From assembly GCA_023252065.1 (NCBI GenBank), contig JAHEXO010000156.1, forward strand, positions 1 through 5,994: 5,994 nucleotides of DNA. Direction: 5' to 3'. The notes beneath the pieces are model-generated. The model was not told the origin of the DNA. It saw only the letters and a list, made by a program, of their open reading frames with translations, and made no database searches. How positions within the stretch are numbered: position 1 is the stretch's first letter; each line of letters starts with the position of its first letter. Shown piece by piece: positions 1,354 to 5,994 of this stretch. This stretch comes from Nocardioides sp. (GTDB taxonomy: Bacteria > Actinomycetota > Actinomycetes > Propionibacteriales > Nocardioidaceae). The translations under genes and the position numbers were made by a program.

Positions 1354-1539
1354 TCAGTGCGGCCGCGCGCTCCTGCCGGTCCGGGAGCTGAGCGGGGCGT
1401 GACCCTTGCGGATCATCTGCACCATCCGCAGGTTGATCCGGGCGAAGCGCCAGGTCTGCACGGGCAGGCTGGACCGTCTCCTGAGGGTCTTGTCGGTGGG
1501 CAGGGGGGCCGAGGCGATGCGCTCGTCGATGTCACTCAT
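1354..1539 (-). CDS. Small basic protein (61 aa) downstream of SQR-like gene
   Basis: A 61-residue protein beginning MSDIDERIASAPLPTDKTLR. It contains about 11 Arg and 2 Lys, with a basic, helix-prone stretch at roughly 27-46 (PVQTWRFARINLRMVQMIRK) that could be an amphipathic helix lying on a membrane or on a partner protein. No transmembrane segment, signal peptide or cysteine is visible. The ATG at 1539 is preceded by GGAG (1550-1547) with seven bases of spacing. The gene starts 37 bp after the stop codon of the SQR-like gene on the same strand, so it is almost certainly co-transcribed and may be an accessory to that membrane-associated enzyme; this is inferred from position only. I do not recognise a named family. 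The ribosome binding site, spacing and sensible N-terminus argue for a real gene despite its size. Confidence 0.65.
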   Translation of the reverse strand: MSDIDERIASAPLPTDKTLRRRSSLPVQTWRFARINLRMVQMIRKGHAPLSSRTGRSARPH

Positions 1540-1576: not shown

Positions 1577-3034
1577 TTACTCCGGGATGAGGAACCAGCC
1601 CGGCCTCGCCTTGGCCTTGTAGAGGAACAGGAAGTGCAGCAGGTGCTTGATCCAGTGCCCCGCCAGCCCGATCTCCCCGGAGGTGTCGGTGAGACTGCGG
1701 CCGCCGGTGGGGTACTTCACGTAGTCCGGCACGACGGGATACATCGTCATCGCGGCGGCGGAGCCGTGCCGCAGGCCGGTGCCGGCGGAAGCGACGCAGG
1801 CGGCACCCATGTCGCTCATGGACGCGGTGTGGGTCGGGGTGGTGGCGCCGTTCTGGATCATGTCGCGGAGGCTGCGGGCCACCTCGCGGCCCATGATGCC
1901 CGAGGGCATGCCGGTGCGAGGGGGAGCCGGGGTGATCAACGTCCCGTTCGGGCTCGTGCGCGGCCGGGAGATCTGGTGCGGGGGCGCGAAGGCGATGCCG
2001 ACGCCGAAGATGTTGCCGTAGGCGGGGGACTGGTAGGTCGAGGGCCAGTCCTCGGCACGCCACTCGTCGTAGGGCTTCGGGGTGTAGTCGGCGTCGACCT
2101 TGAGGAAGCCGCTCGGGGCGAAGAGCCGGTCGGTGATCTCGGCGCCCTCCGCGTCGTACGCCGTCATGGCGGCGCCGCGGAACGGTGGCAGCAGCATGGC
2201 GAAGTCGAAGGTGAGGCTCTCGTGGGTGCCGTCGAGCGTCTCGTAGAACACCTTGCCGGGCTCCACCCGCTCGACGTGTGCGCGGAGCACCGCCCGGACC
2301 CCGCGCTCGCGGAACAGCGACTCCGTCCACGTCTGGCTCGACGAGAGGAACCCGCCTTGGTCGAACACCATGCCGCCGACCCCGAAGTCGCCGAGGTCGT
2401 ACTCGTTGCTCAGGTAGACGATCTCGGCGAGGTCGCGCACGCCGGCGGCCCGGAGCTCGGCGTCGACGTTGAAGGTGTACTCGAACGCCGCGCCCTCGCA
2501 GGTGCAGGCCCCGTGACCCATGCCGATGACGAGCCGCTGCGGCTCGCCGGCGCGCAGCTTCTCGATCACCTGCTTGAGCGCATCGGCCGTCTCGACCGCG
2601 TGGCCCGCGGTGCACACCGACCAGGAGTTGCCGTCGGGGCCGAGGCCGGGCGTCGCCTCGAAGTTGAGCCGGGGTCCGGTCGCGTTGACGAGATAGTCGT
2701 AGCGGATCCGCTCGGTCTCGCCGTGTCGCTCGGGGGAGGTGTGGACGACGTCGACGCCGGGTCGGCTGTCACCCTGGTCGCCCTCGGGCCACACCGCGAC
2801 CGCCTTGGCCTGCCGGTAGGTGACGCCCTTGCGCCGGTAGACCGGAGCGAGGGGGAACGTGACGTCCTTGACCGTCATCTTGCCGACGCCGACCCAGATG
2901 TTGGAGGGGATCCAGTTCCACTGCGAGTTGGGCGACACGACCATCACCTCGTGCTCCTTGTCGAGCATCCGCCGCAGGTGGAGTGCAGCGGTGTGACCGG
3001 AGATGCCGGCACCGAGGATGACGACGCGAGCCAT
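1577..3034 (-). CDS. sqr: Sulfide:quinone oxidoreductase-like FAD flavoprotein
   Basis: A 485-residue flavoprotein of the FAD-dependent pyridine-nucleotide-disulfide oxidoreductase fold. In the SQR family it oxidises sulfide to polysulfide or persulfide and passes electrons to membrane quinone. The N-terminal dinucleotide site is VVILGAGISG (GxGxxG, 8-13), and a second FAD-contact motif is YDYLVNATGP (112-121). Candidate redox cysteines are C141 (SVCTAGHA), C177 and C179 (GMGHGACTCEGAAFEYTF) and C413 (DMGAACVAS), matching the general placement of SQR catalytic cysteines. The C-terminus (about 456-485, EIGLAGHWIKHLLHFLFLYK, ending in GWFLIPE) forms an amphipathic or hydrophobic helix region suited to membrane attachment. 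Length is slightly above the roughly 430 residues of classical SQRs. The ATG at 3034 follows AGGAGA (3044-3039). A perfect CsoR/CstR-like palindrome lies 48 bp upstream, implying induction by reactive sulfur (or copper). A related flavoprotein such as flavocytochrome c-type sulfide dehydrogenase is less likely because no export signal is visible. Confidence 0.85.
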   Translation of the reverse strand: MARVVILGAGISGHTAALHLRRMLDKEHEVMVVSPNSQWNWIPSNIWVGVGKMTVKDVTFPLAPVYRRKGVTYRQAKAVAVWPEGDQGDSRPGVDVVHTSPERHGETERIRYDYLVNATGPRLNFEATPGLGPDGNSWSVCTAGHAVETADALKQVIEKLRAGEPQRLVIGMGHGACTCEGAAFEYTFNVDAELRAAGVRDLAEIVYLSNEYDLGDFGVGGMVFDQGGFLSSSQTWTESLFRERGVRAVLRAHVERVEPGKVFYETLDGTHESLTFDFAMLLPPFRGAAMTAYDAEGAEITDRLFAPSGFLKVDADYTPKPYDEWRAEDWPSTYQSPAYGNIFGVGIAFAPPHQISRPRTSPNGTLITPAPPRTGMPSGIMGREVARSLRDMIQNGATTPTHTASMSDMGAACVASAGTGLRHGSAAAMTMYPVVPDYVKYPTGGRSLTDTSGEIGLAGHWIKHLLHFLFLYKAKARPGWFLIPE

Positions 3035-3080: not shown

Positions 3081-3110
3081 AGGATATACCCCTAGGGGTA
3101 TATCTGGAAG
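3081..3110 (-). promoter_or_regulatory. sqr: Candidate promoter of the SQR-like operon
   Basis: On the minus strand CTTCCA (3110-3105) and TATCCT (3086-3081) are separated by 18 bases, with the CsoR/CstR-like palindrome filling the spacer. This is the geometry expected for direct repression. The -35 match is poor (3 of 6) and the -10 is fair, so the exact elements are tentative. Confidence 0.35.
3083..3104. promoter_or_regulatory. CsoR/CstR-family operator-like perfect palindrome upstream of SQR
   Basis: Bases 3083-3104 form a perfect 22-bp inverted repeat: GATATACCCCT on one side and its exact complement on the other, centred between 3093 and 3094. The core, ATACCC-CTAG-GGGTAT at 3086-3101, has the form of sites bound by DUF156 repressors (copper-sensing CsoR, persulfide-sensing CstR). 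It lies in the 109-bp gap between the transporter stop and the SQR start, 48 bp before the latter. The AT-rich ends stand out against the very GC-rich surroundings. The identity of the repressor is inferred. Confidence 0.75.
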
Positions 3111-3143
3111 CGCGGCGGACCGGCGACCGGGCTCATGGCCGGC

Positions 3144-5312
3144 TCAGCTGTGGGAGAAGCGGATGTCGGGCAGGACCCGGGTCAGCCACCGGGGCGCGTA
3201 CCAGGCTGCCCGGCCCGTCAGGCGCAGGAGCACGGGCAACAGCACGAGCCGAACCAGGAAGGCGTCGAGGAGCACCGCCACGCCGAGCACGATGCCCATC
3301 TCCTTGGGCGGGAGCGGTCCGGAGAGGGCGAAGGTGAAGAACACCGCCACCATGACCGCTCCGGCGGCGAAGATGACCCGACCTGAGTGCGCGATGGAGC
3401 CGACCATCGCGTCTCGAGGATCGCCGGAGTGCTCGTAGTGCTCCTTGGCCGAGGCCAGCAGGAACACCGTGTAGTCCATGGCGATCGCGAAGATCATGGC
3501 GAAGAAGAAGACCGGCGCCCAGGCGTCGAGGAAGCCCTGGTGCTCGAAGCCCATGACGCTCGACCCCCAGCCGTCCTGGAAGACGAGTCGGGCGACCCCG
3601 AAGGCGGCGGCCGTGGACAGCAGGCTGGCCAGGGTGCCGAGCAGGGCGATCAGCGGCGCTTGGAGCGCGACCAGCAGCAGGAGGAAGCCGAGGGTGAGGA
3701 TGACGCCGATGACCAGGGGAGTGGAGGAGTCGAGCTGGGTCTTGAGGTCGAGGTTCTCCACGGCGGCACCTCCGACGACCGCGGAGACCGGCAGGTCCGC
3801 GCGCAGGCGGTCGACGGTGGTCGCGAGCGCGGGGTCCGACGGGTCCACGGTGGGAACGGCCTGGATGAGGGCGTGGTCGGTGCCGTCGCCGGCCGGGACC
3901 GCCGGCAGCGCGCCGCTGATCCCTGGGTCCTTGGCAAGCACCGCCGCAGCGGCGCCGGCCTGGCCCTTGTCGACGACGATCGTCAGGGTGCCGGGTGCCC
4001 CGGCGCCGAAGGCTTTCTGCACCTGGTCGTAGCCGATGCGTGCGCTGGCGCTCGCGGGCAGCACCTTGATGGAGGGCATCGCGGTCTTCAGCCCGAACAC
4101 GGGTGCGGCGAGGGCGAGCAGGACCACCAGCGAGGCCAGACCCCATGCCACGGGACGCCGCCAGAGGCGCTCACCCCAGGCCTCGAACCGCGCCGAGCGG
4201 TGCTCGCCGACGTGGACCCACGGGAGGGCGAGCTTGTTGACCTTGTAGTCGAGCTTGAACAGCACCAGCGGGAGCAGGGTGAGCGTGGCGGCGAGGACGA
4301 AGACGACCGAGAGCATGATGCCGCCGGCCATCGACCGGAACGACGGGGACGGCACGAGCATGACGGCCGAGAGAGAGATGAGCACCGTGGCTCCGGACAG
4401 CAGGACTGCCTTGCCTGCGGTGTCCATGGTCTCGGCGATCGCCTGCCGGGCGTTCTCGTGATGGCCCATGCGAGCCGCCCGGAAGCGCACCACGATGAAC
4501 AGCGCGTAGTCGATGCCGAGGGCGAGGGCGAACATCATCGCGAAGTTCATCGCCCACACCGACACAGGCACGACATGGTTGATCAGGACCAGCGAGCCGG
4601 CTGAGGCGACCAGTCCGGCCAGGGTCAGCAGGAGCGGGAGACCGGCGGCCACCAGGGCGCCGAAGGCCAGCACGAGGATGGCCAGGGTGACCGGCCACGA
4701 CAGCATCTCGGACTTCATCATCGCCGAGAGGTTGGCCTGGTTGAAGTCCGACCAGAGCAGGGAGGCGCCGGTCGGGTTGACCTGGACGGTGCTCGTGGAC
4801 AGGTCCTGTAGCGGGCCCTTGAGGGCGTCCGCGACGCGCACCATCTCGCTGGGGTCGACGTTGGCGCCGGCCAGGAGGACGGCGGTCCGGCCGTCCTGGC
4901 TGAGGGTGGCGCCGGGCTGCGGCTGGACGATGTCGGCGATCCGGGGATCCTGGCGCAGGAGCGCCGTGGCCCGGGCCAGAACCTGCGGGCCGTCGCCCTG
5001 CGTGACGGCGCCTTCCGTGGAGTGGACCACGACCTGGATCGCCGTACTGGCGTTGCCGCCGAAGTGCTGCTGCGCGAGCTCGCGCGCGGCGACCGACTCG
5101 GAGCCGTTGGCCTGCCAACCGGCGCCGGAGAGCTCGGACTCGACCCTCGGTGCGAGGACCCCGAGCCCGACGATGACCAGCAGCCACAGCACCGTGGTGA
5201 CGCGGCCGTGGTGGGTGACCAGCACCCCGAGCCGACCCAGGGGGCCCGGGCGGTATCCGACGGCCGGGTCGATCTCGGGTCGGGTGTGGCGGCTGGACGC
5301 CGTCGAGGTCAT
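3144..5312 (-). CDS. MmpL-family RND transporter (MMPL domain protein)
   Basis: A 722-residue inner-membrane transporter of the MmpL/HAE2 RND type, proton-driven exporters of lipids and other hydrophobic molecules. Topology read from hydrophobicity is the usual duplicated 1+5, 1+5 plan. TM1 is about 38-55, followed by an external loop (56-205). TM2-6 lie between 206 and 353, TM7 about 389-407, a second loop 408-532, and TM8-12 between 533 and 696. Each half keeps the TM4/TM10 Asp-Tyr pair used for proton relay: GIDYALF (D268-Y269) and AMDYTVF (D613-Y614). The ATG at 5312 is chosen because GGAGGA (5323-5318) sits five bases upstream; an in-frame TTG at 5342 would add ten residues but has no better site. 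The last residues are DIRFSHS. A CsoR/CstR-like site lies 64 bp upstream, in the divergent promoter shared with the DUF302 gene. Substrate is unknown; the regulatory context suggests a role in sulfur or metal stress. Confidence 0.9.
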   Translation of the reverse strand: MTSTASSRHTRPEIDPAVGYRPGPLGRLGVLVTHHGRVTTVLWLLVIVGLGVLAPRVESELSGAGWQANGSESVAARELAQQHFGGNASTAIQVVVHSTEGAVTQGDGPQVLARATALLRQDPRIADIVQPQPGATLSQDGRTAVLLAGANVDPSEMVRVADALKGPLQDLSTSTVQVNPTGASLLWSDFNQANLSAMMKSEMLSWPVTLAILVLAFGALVAAGLPLLLTLAGLVASAGSLVLINHVVPVSVWAMNFAMMFALALGIDYALFIVVRFRAARMGHHENARQAIAETMDTAGKAVLLSGATVLISLSAVMLVPSPSFRSMAGGIMLSVVFVLAATLTLLPLVLFKLDYKVNKLALPWVHVGEHRSARFEAWGERLWRRPVAWGLASLVVLLALAAPVFGLKTAMPSIKVLPASASARIGYDQVQKAFGAGAPGTLTIVVDKGQAGAAAAVLAKDPGISGALPAVPAGDGTDHALIQAVPTVDPSDPALATTVDRLRADLPVSAVVGGAAVENLDLKTQLDSSTPLVIGVILTLGFLLLLVALQAPLIALLGTLASLLSTAAAFGVARLVFQDGWGSSVMGFEHQGFLDAWAPVFFFAMIFAIAMDYTVFLLASAKEHYEHSGDPRDAMVGSIAHSGRVIFAAGAVMVAVFFTFALSGPLPPKEMGIVLGVAVLLDAFLVRLVLLPVLLRLTGRAAWYAPRWLTRVLPDIRFSHS

Positions 5313-5317
5313 CTGGG

Positions 5318-5323
5318 TCCTCC
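5318..5323 (-). promoter_or_regulatory. Ribosome binding site deciding the MmpL start
   Basis: On the minus strand GGAGGA is followed by five bases (CCCAG) and the ATG at 5312. This favours 5312 over the upstream in-frame TTG at 5342. Confidence 0.7.
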
Positions 5324-5364
5324 GGGTTCGAAGCGGGAGCAAAGGGCGAGAACCGCGATCGGTC

Positions 5365-5395
5365 CTGGCACTAGGAATACCCTAGGGGGTATATA
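5365..5395 (+). promoter_or_regulatory. Candidate DUF302 promoter spanning the second operator
   Basis: CTGGCA at 5365-5370 and TATATA at 5390-5395 are separated by 19 bases, with the ATACCC-N4-GGGTAT site lying in the spacer and overlapping the -10. The long spacer resembles MerR-type promoters, but these elements are only partial matches, so this is tentative. The divergent transporter promoter must lie in the same 5313-5428 interval, but I could not pick its elements. Confidence 0.3.
5377..5392. promoter_or_regulatory. Second CsoR/CstR-family operator-like site in the divergent promoter
   Basis: ATACCC-TAGG-GGGTAT at 5377-5392 has the same half-sites and 4-base spacing as the site at 3086-3101, and both continue with AT on the right. 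The centre (TAGG rather than CTAG) is not symmetric, so this copy is slightly imperfect. It is 36 bp before the DUF302 ATG and 64 bp before the transporter ATG, well placed to control both divergent genes. The matching repressor type is inferred. Confidence 0.7.
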
Positions 5396-5428: not shown

Positions 5429-5833
5429 ATGACCGCCTACACGCTGCGCACCGAGGTAGCGCTTCGCTTCGACGCGGCCCTCGCGGCCACCCGGGCGGCG
5501 CTGGCCCAGCAGGGCTTCGGGGTGCTCACCGAGATCGACCTGGCTGCGACGCTGCACGCCAAGCTCGGGGTCGACCTGGCGCCGCAGGTCATCCTGGGCG
5601 CCTGTCGGCCACCCTTGGCCCTCGAGGCGATCCAGGCGGATCCGGCGATCGCCACGGTGCTGCCGTGCAACGTCGTCGTGCGAGCGGTCGGGGACGGCAG
5701 CAGCACGGTCGTCGAGGCACTGGATCCCGCCGTGATGCTCAGGGTCAGCGACGACCGCGCGCTCGAGACCGTCGCCACTGACGCCCGGCAACGACTCGTC
5801 GCCGCCCTCGCCGTGCTCGATCAGGAGACCTGA
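5429..5833 (+). CDS. DUF302 family protein
   Basis: A 134-residue, single-domain cytoplasmic protein. The core matches what I know of DUF302: GFGVLTEIDLAATLHAKLGV (29-48), then ILGACRPPLALEAI (55-68) and VLPCNVVVR (77-85), then a substrate-independent tail with VEALDPAVML (95-104). Two cysteines, C59 in GACRPP and C80 in LPCNV, sit in the two most characteristic motifs, which makes thiol or metal chemistry plausible, though the biochemical role of the family is not established. No signal peptide or membrane segment is visible. Start chosen at the ATG with AGGAGGA four bases upstream. The gene diverges from the MmpL transporter across a 116-bp region that carries a CsoR/CstR-like operator, so it is probably induced together with the transporter and the SQR-like gene. 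DUF302 genes are often seen near sulfur or copper functions, in keeping with this setting. Confidence 0.88.
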   Translation: MTAYTLRTEVALRFDAALAATRAALAQQGFGVLTEIDLAATLHAKLGVDLAPQVILGACRPPLALEAIQADPAIATVLPCNVVVRAVGDGSSTVVEALDPAVMLRVSDDRALETVATDARQRLVAALAVLDQET

Positions 5834-5869
5834 GCCTGCGCAGGCGGGTCTTGACCGAGCTCACCGACA

Positions 5870-5906
5870 CCCCGCAGGCGGGGCGGCGATCGCCTCGTGC
5901 GAGGCG
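5870..5906 (+). terminator. Tandem GC-rich hairpins after the DUF302 gene
   Basis: Two perfect short inverted repeats follow the DUF302 stop. CCCCGC (5870-5875) pairs with GCGGGG (5878-5883), and CGCCTCG (5891-5897) pairs with CGAGGCG (5900-5906). As RNA the loops would open to four bases. A further self-complementary GCCTGCGCAGGC lies at 5835-5846. There is no T-tract, which is common in high-GC actinobacteria. The position between convergent genes supports a terminator role. Confidence 0.45.
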
Positions 5907-5921
5907 CGGCTGGGCAGCAGC

Positions 5922-5940
5922 GTGAGCGGCTCGCGCTCAC
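5922..5940 (-). terminator. Hairpin after the right-edge minus-strand gene
   Basis: GTGAGCG (5922-5928) and CGCTCAC (5934-5940) form a perfect 7-bp stem with a 5-base loop. It begins 7 bases past the stop codon of the right-edge gene on the minus strand and may serve transcripts from either side. No T-tract follows. Confidence 0.4.
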
Positions 5941-5947
5941 CGCCGGC

Positions 5948-5994
5948 TCAGCCGAGGTTCACCCGCACCGGTGCCGAGGTGGTCGTGTTGCCCG
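5948..5994 (-). CDS. C-terminal end of a minus-strand gene, possibly an Ig-like-domain protein (partial)
   Basis: Reading leftward from the right edge, 14 codons and a TGA (5950-5948) encode GNTTTSAPVRVNLG. This looks like the last strand of a bacterial Ig-like or fibronectin-type domain, where endings such as AGNTTTSAPVxV are common in secreted or surface proteins. A hairpin right after the stop and convergence with the DUF302 gene fit a real gene end. Only 14 residues are visible, so both the coding call and the family are tentative. Confidence 0.4.
   Translation of the reverse strand, partial: GNTTTSAPVRVNLG

Follow-up and report, generated by a model that had tools for sequence, protein, structure and literature searches.

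The window analyzed here, the whole stretch of 5,994 nucleotides of contig JAHEXO010000156.1 from a Nocardioides sp. (assembly GCA_023252065.1), encodes a sulfide:quinone oxidoreductase (SQR) with a small basic partner protein, a transporter of the MMPL family and a DUF302 protein. Upstream of these genes lie two exact copies of a G-tract pseudo-palindrome of the kind that serves as the operator of CsoR/CstR-family (DUF156) repressors. The arrangement is as follows.

1354-1539, minus strand: 61-aa basic SQR-partner protein (APLPTxxTLRxR...Q..RF...N), just after SQR
1577-3034, minus strand: SQR, 485 aa, with a Pyr_redox_2 domain; Cys141, Cys179 and Cys413 align with cysteines of solved SQRs
3086-3101, no strand assigned: operator 1, ATACCCCTAGGGGTAT, upstream of the SQR gene, an exact ATACCC-N4-GGGTAT
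3144-5312, minus strand: MMPL family transporter, 722 aa from the likely ATG (PF03176, 2.6e-64)
5377-5392, no strand assigned: operator 2, ATACCCTAGGGGGTAT, between the divergent MMPL and DUF302 genes and predicted to serve both
5429-5833, plus strand: DUF302 protein, 134 aa (PF03625, 1.5e-20), divergent from MMPL, with conserved Cys59 and Cys80
5834-5994, no strand assigned: the usual place of cstR, the CstR-type repressor gene, after DUF302 in many relatives; a DUF156 coding trace is absent

The names that an earlier note on this DNA had given to the four genes hold, with matches to the Pyr_redox_2/SQR, MMPL and DUF302 domains and a basic protein of 61 aa. The SQR finds its best PDB relatives among solved SQRs (3hyv, 3sz0 and others; best E 6.3e-36), the two named entries presumably coming from Aquifex aeolicus and Acidithiobacillus ferrooxidans, and it combines an SQR-like FAD fold with the redox-active cysteines, all three of which are invariant in an alignment of 15 sequences; none of the NCBIfam SQR models reached its cut-off with this protein. 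The 61-aa protein has no match in Pfam or NCBIfam, a relative of it stands directly after SQR in 74 of the 80 SQR loci described below, and it is possibly a membrane tether or an assembly partner of SQR. The transporter displays the MMPL domain, an RND-type fold and both DY motifs, which form the proton relay of MMPL proteins and are invariant among 21 aligned sequences; its predicted structure has an MmpL3-like fold (TM-score 0.85 to MmpL3), which does not indicate the cargo. Because both DY motifs and this fold are kept, the protein probably uses protons to drive the export of a hydrophobic substrate. MmpL3 itself, the trehalose monomycolate exporter, is of the same family and fold, with 22-24% identity in structure alignments, but the group to which the window protein belongs differs from it by linkage to sulfur genes. 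The two cysteines of the DUF302 protein, which has a solved homolog (1j3m), are invariant in 14 aligned cassette members and kept in at least 95% of 62.

The claim of two matching operators was borne out: both 16-bp sites agree with ATACCC-N4-GGGTAT at zero mismatches, the sole further match in the window has three, and randomised windows yielded none, either for this pattern (no exact match among 5000 randomisations of the window, which has 71% G+C, by a first-order Markov model) or for the shorter ATACC-N6-GGTAT (0 in 2000). A set of 22 related genomes (3.8-7.2 Mb) contains 54 exact ATACC-N6-GGTAT sites, 0-7 per genome, against a single occurrence of the reversed pattern in one genome and none in the other 21. 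The 16-mer of operator 2, or its reverse complement ATACCCCCTAGGGTAT, is found again in the cassettes of several relatives. Operator 1 lies 51 bases from the SQR ATG (3034, minus strand), and operator 2 lies 36 bases from the DUF302 ATG (5429, plus strand) and 64 from the likely MMPL ATG (5312, minus strand). By eye only, a hexamer of the form TANNNT can be seen after each operator, TATCCT towards SQR and TAGGAT towards DUF302, which would be expected if the repressor covers the promoter.

Related SQR loci were drawn from a scan of GTDB genomes, as the best 80 of at least 570 confirmed SQR stretches, with up to 10 kb of DNA on each side. An exact ATACC-N6-GGTAT is present within 400 bp upstream of SQR in 47 of the 80 loci, compared to 54 of 3066 other 400-bp windows from the same loci, and a site with at most one mismatch in 63 of 80 compared to 66 of 3066, the comparison windows including sites of neighbouring targets; randomised SQR upstream regions gave means of 0.01 and 0.49 per 80, respectively. 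In 32 of the 80 loci, a DUF156 gene is encountered no more than 3 kb from SQR. The order found in the window (operator, MMPL, operator, SQR, small protein) recurs in loci L005 and L007, where it ends in cstR, whereas L053 and L057 have the order MMPL, cstR, operator, SQR, small protein; MMPL near SQR with sites is also found in L004, L012 and L013. The L005 and L007 loci come from metagenome-assembled genomes labelled Acidobacteria and Acidimicrobiaceae, and agree both in gene order and in a DUF156 stretch that is identical in the two; the Acidobacteria label may be wrong.

The transporter has a wider distribution, its ortholog group being present in 98 of the 196 genomes with which the genus of Nocardioides daeguensis (G005) was sampled and in 36 of 394 in a sample of its class. 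The 87 MMPL loci compared, some of whose flanks end at contig ends, consist of 60 regions of the genus search (nearly all top-ranked) and 27 from the class search, which had 39 rows; of the remaining 12 rows, 10 were genomes already covered and 2 were left out. Within 7 kb of MMPL, these loci encode a CstR-type DUF156 protein in 74 cases, DUF302 in 61, both in 59, a fusion of metallo-beta-lactamase (MBL) and rhodanese domains, predicted to be a persulfide dioxygenase (PDO), in 42, the sulfite exporter TauE in 40, and a copper-type DUF156 protein in none. Two layouts dominate in Nocardioides: in one, cstR and DUF302 are divergent from MMPL, which is the arrangement of the window plus a cstR gene; in the other, the same pair is divergent from a PDO-TauE-MMPL run. 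For the fusion in L150, where TauE is confirmed by Pfam, the nearest PDB entries are 3tp9 and 3r2u, the latter of which we take to be S. aureus CstB, and ETHE1 was matched as well. As a control, 26 MMPL genes in four genomes (G148 being in contigs) were counted by hand, three weak single matches excluded: each of the four orthologs has a DUF156 gene no further than 3.5 kb away, compared to one of the other 22 MMPL genes within 7 kb, a gene of G136 located some 5 kb from the cstR that belongs to the cassette.

Operators accompany the cassette as well. A relaxed operator pattern, composed after inspection of the gaps in loci without the ATACC form, occurs in the 3.3 kb before MMPL in 74 of 87 loci compared to 8 of 242 other windows of the same size, and 118 of the 133 relaxed-pattern sites fall in these 3.3 kb. 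The supposition that a locus without an ATACC site is without control was dropped, since many such loci (20 by eye, e.g., L157, L164, L165, L167, L168, and L171) have paired CCCC/GGGG palindromes in the gap. By eye, this paired operator, a variant made of CCCCC/GGGGG palindromes flanked by A/T, stands ahead of a rhodanese-like frame in 12 of the 20. L145 and L157 encode a DUF156 protein of a divergent kind (GHLASVIRMMEEGSDC), which, together with the variant operator, may represent a co-change of repressor and site.

In copper-responsive CsoR proteins, a histidine is located four residues before the second cysteine, and this copper ligand is present in the M. tuberculosis CsoR entry 2hh7. The DUF156 genes linked to SQR encode Ser, Gly, Ala, Asn, or Arg at this position in 32 of 32 cases, with no His, and a repressor with two cysteines and no histidine is encoded in all 74 MMPL loci that contain a classed gene, the copper type being absent. 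A tree of 148 different DUF156 domains fully separates the 24 His from the 121 non-His sequences with support 1.0 (three are unclassed), and no His-type protein comes from an SQR or MMPL locus. Going by the class to which the linked repressors of relatives belong, reactive sulfur is thus favoured over copper as the signal, in agreement with the preference expressed in the earlier note. The note had also assigned SQR, the small protein, MMPL and DUF302 to one candidate regulon of the CstR/CsoR type, a proposal supported by the recurrence in relatives.

The sites, the genes, their recurring linkage and the class of the linked repressors in relatives can all be read directly from the DNA, and the predicted targets oxidise or move sulfide or sulfane sulfur (the SQR with its conserved cysteines in the window, the PDO fusion and TauE in relatives). 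We consider it quite probable, judging from this comparison, that the window comprises two units of a single regulon of the CstR type, that is, one governed by a sulfane-sulfur sensing DUF156 repressor, in which SQR joined an MMPL/DUF302 cassette. More generally, the comparison across relatives suggests a real and widespread defence against reactive sulfur.

Several observations weigh against this reading. No gene for a DUF156 repressor was found within the window, for which the class of the regulator is predicted from relatives, and no remnant of cstR was detected after DUF302 in a tblastn comparison of 82 DUF156 domains with positions 5701-5994 (best E 0.13); a scan for a consensus sigma-70 promoter yielded none, and the terminator scan was likewise blank. 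The loci are related by descent, such that the counts given above are not independent, and 17 of the 80 SQR loci lack a site within 400 bp, two of these with an upstream region shorter than 400 bp. The MMPL ortholog is present in only 7 of the 80 SQR loci and DUF302 in 2, and the window-type SQR is present in 5 of the 196 genomes of the genus sample, so that SQR and MMPL are usually apart; given this rarity, we infer that in the genus sample the MMPL/DUF302 cassette is the commoner unit, to which SQR looks like a recruit. Furthermore, 10 of the 87 MMPL loci lack CstR, DUF302 and PDO, 3 of these 10 with a site. The named models alone do not call the linked repressors CstR: the nearest NCBIfam model is RicR, at 41-43 bits with a cut-off of 175, compared to 114 for a His-type protein, and in PDB searches with a linked repressor copper CsoR and 7mq1, the latter presumably E. 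faecalis CstR, score alike, 7mq1 reaching only E 7.5e-10 with the actinobacterial repressor. Finally, the motif is not specific, lying near copper-ATPase genes in some relatives.

This last point bears on the alternatives that involve copper. Of the 54 exact sites, 29 are in SQR or MMPL loci and 25 elsewhere, and 18 of the latter were inspected. Half of these (9 of 18) are at sulfur or thiol-redox genes, namely a CstR-type gene about 0.6 kb from the site (L287), a pyridine-nucleotide disulfide oxidoreductase with a rhodanese domain (L288), an ArsR-rhodanese (L291), thioredoxins (L292, L293, and L298), SQRs of a second subfamily (L295 and L297) and a rhodanese plus PDO fusion (L296). Five have no assigned gene link (L284, L286, L289, L290, and L299). 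The other four (L283, L285, L294, and L300) are, by position, near HMA-domain genes in genomes G040 (two sites), G162 and G191; E1-E2 ATPases are confirmed at L283 and L285, the two G040 sites, and at L300 a carboxymuconolactone-decarboxylase-type gene is closer to the site than the HMA gene. The notion that the motif marks sulfur genes only was therefore rejected, as was the notion that the centre of the site tells sulfur from copper, because in G191 the identical 16-mer ATACCCCCGGGGGTAT is found both near HMA genes (L294) and before SQR (L295). The motif is thus common to sulfur and copper genes, even within the same genomes. A regulon in which a copper-type CsoR/RicR occupies both sites, with the genes serving copper homeostasis or copper-sulfide cross-protection, would be in line with the HMA-linked sites and leaves room for a repressor that is not among the genes seen in the window; it is nonetheless very unlikely, considering that the copper type is absent from the SQR-linked repressors and from the MMPL loci with a classed repressor, that the partners in relatives are the PDO fusion, TauE and DUF302, and that no gene for an HMA protein, copper ATPase, chaperone or oxidase is among the six window proteins scanned. 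Dual control, whereby copper-type and CstR-type repressors would share the operator and the two units would answer both copper and sulfane sulfur, draws on the same shared motif and on the established coupling of copper and sulfide chemistry. The identical 16-mer in L294 and L295 removes the argument of differing site centres, and for this reason we lowered our confidence in regulation by a CstR-type repressor and raised it in dual control, which still appears quite unlikely inasmuch as no copper-type gene is beside any SQR or MMPL locus read.

It is also conceivable, though unlikely, that the sites are real and that the MMPL/DUF302 unit is nevertheless unrelated to SQR in function, for instance as an envelope lipid exporter, the closeness of the two being due to chance. 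The fold of the transporter is that of lipid exporters, and SQR orthologs are found in 5 of the 196 genus genomes compared to 98 of 196 for MMPL. However, MMPL orthologs stand downstream of the PDO fusion and TauE or adjoin cstR in loci without SQR, which points to a tie to sulfur independent of SQR, and the proximity of MMPL to SQR with sites is repeated in the loci listed above (L004, L005, L007, L012, L013, L053, and L057). With respect to the preferred CstR-type regulon, the window is paralleled most clearly in genome G137, which has just three exact sites, one before MMPL, one before a rhodanese plus PDO fusion that has a DUF156 gene nearby, and one before an SQR.

We know of no cst-like operon of S. 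aureus or E. faecalis with an MMPL or DUF302 member. In other respects the proposed regulon is akin to CstR and the cst-like operons of these bacteria, in which a dithiol DUF156 repressor controls persulfide-handling genes (PMC9405070, in excerpt, apart from the details on S. aureus). Closer still is ScCsoR (sco0620) of S. coelicolor, which binds ATACCn6GGTAT, the same operator, and is released by HSnH/polysulfide through Cys37 and Cys66 (PMC7533328, in excerpt); of its kinds of targets, the PDO, as a fusion, and TauE stand before MMPL in many of the relatives analyzed here. The ScCsoR circuit as described in the same excerpt consists of four genes, for the repressor, PDO, a rhodanese and a sulfite transporter, and thus does not include SQR, MMPL or DUF302, whereas the window is without PDO, rhodanese and TauE (PMC7533328). 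The two-Cys CsoR-family repressor TTHA1953 of Thermus likewise controls sulfur genes in the manner of the CstR type, but its site, TACNNTACNNNNGTANNGTA, is different and its targets are Sox genes (PMC10318464, in excerpt). DUF302 was noticed earlier beside sox genes and in the Synechocystis sqr operon (PMC5037610, PMC11034169, PMC5061849, all in excerpt), which, together with its two invariant cysteines, makes a sulfur-handling role likely. The statement in the earlier note that a layout of this kind was not known can be retained in part: DUF302 together with a CsoR-family regulator, a sulfur dioxygenase, rhodaneses and TauE is in print for the SUL module of Arthrobacter plasmids, which differs from the MMPL cassettes, as far as the annotation in the excerpted text goes, in having an MFS transporter in the place of MMPL (PMC6305408). 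For the MMPL member itself, no report was found in the open-licence PMC text searched by titles and abstract openings; the sensor, the site and the enzymes are all of known kinds.

By analogy with ScCsoR, the two units of the window would be repressed in trans by a CstR-type protein and induced by sulfane sulfur. We infer binding, induction, the identity of the repressor in this genome and what MMPL, DUF302 and the small protein do along the following lines. A dithiol CstR-type repressor encoded elsewhere in the genome would occupy both operators and block expression of SQR with the small protein, of MMPL and of DUF302. Upon entry of sulfide or polysulfide, sulfane sulfur would bridge or persulfidate the two cysteines of the repressor, and the modified protein would leave the DNA, such that the gene set is induced. 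SQR at the membrane would then convert sulfide to sulfane sulfur, the DUF302 protein with its two conserved cysteines could handle the product as a sulfur carrier or sink, and the MMPL pump, which in relatives is encoded together with the PDO fusion and the TauE sulfite exporter, would export hydrophobic sulfur species or sulfur-damaged lipid, a cargo that is our guess from the company of genes. In a more specific and distinctly tentative version, the MMPL group would be devoted to the proton-driven export of sulfane sulfur in hydrophobic or organic form (or of lipid modified by sulfur), DUF302 would be a cytoplasmic sulfane-sulfur carrier, and the CstR cassette would be the older unit, with SQR a late recruit in the lineage of the window. 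If correct, the exporter would represent a new physiological role for the MMPL superfamily. The known members of sulfane-sulfur stress regulons are enzymes and a sulfite exporter. A conserved transporter of the lipid type with ties to the repressor class of these regulons across Actinomycetota, and on plasmids too, would point to an unassigned step of sulfur detoxification, and DUF302, a widespread family without a known function, gains a testable context.

On plasmids, relatives of the MMPL protein at 60-80% identity are present in 44 records, 41 of them from Rhodococcus. In each of the six plasmid regions read, a gene annotated as 'metal-sensitive transcriptional regulator' is located about 4 kb or less from MMPL, a label that would conceal the link to sulfur, and two of the six also encode a FAD/NAD(P)-binding oxidoreductase, of which the one from Tsukamurella resembles type III SQR at a score below the model cut-off. 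The run on R. erythropolis pBD2 (L259) and on an R. fascians plasmid (MMPL, YgaP-like transmembrane protein, DUF302, TauE, DUF156, and MBL-rhodanese) is similar to the window, but differs from it in that the part of the Rhodococcus stretch that was read is without SQR and the regulator is annotated as 'metal-sensitive'. The window SQR had no relative in the viral collection scanned, and among plasmids (E up to 1e-60) it matched three records only, all at less than 60% identity. Downstream of the SQR unit and on the same strand, positions 628-1281 encode a response regulator whose receiver domain is recognised by Pfam, with no match to a DNA-binding domain.

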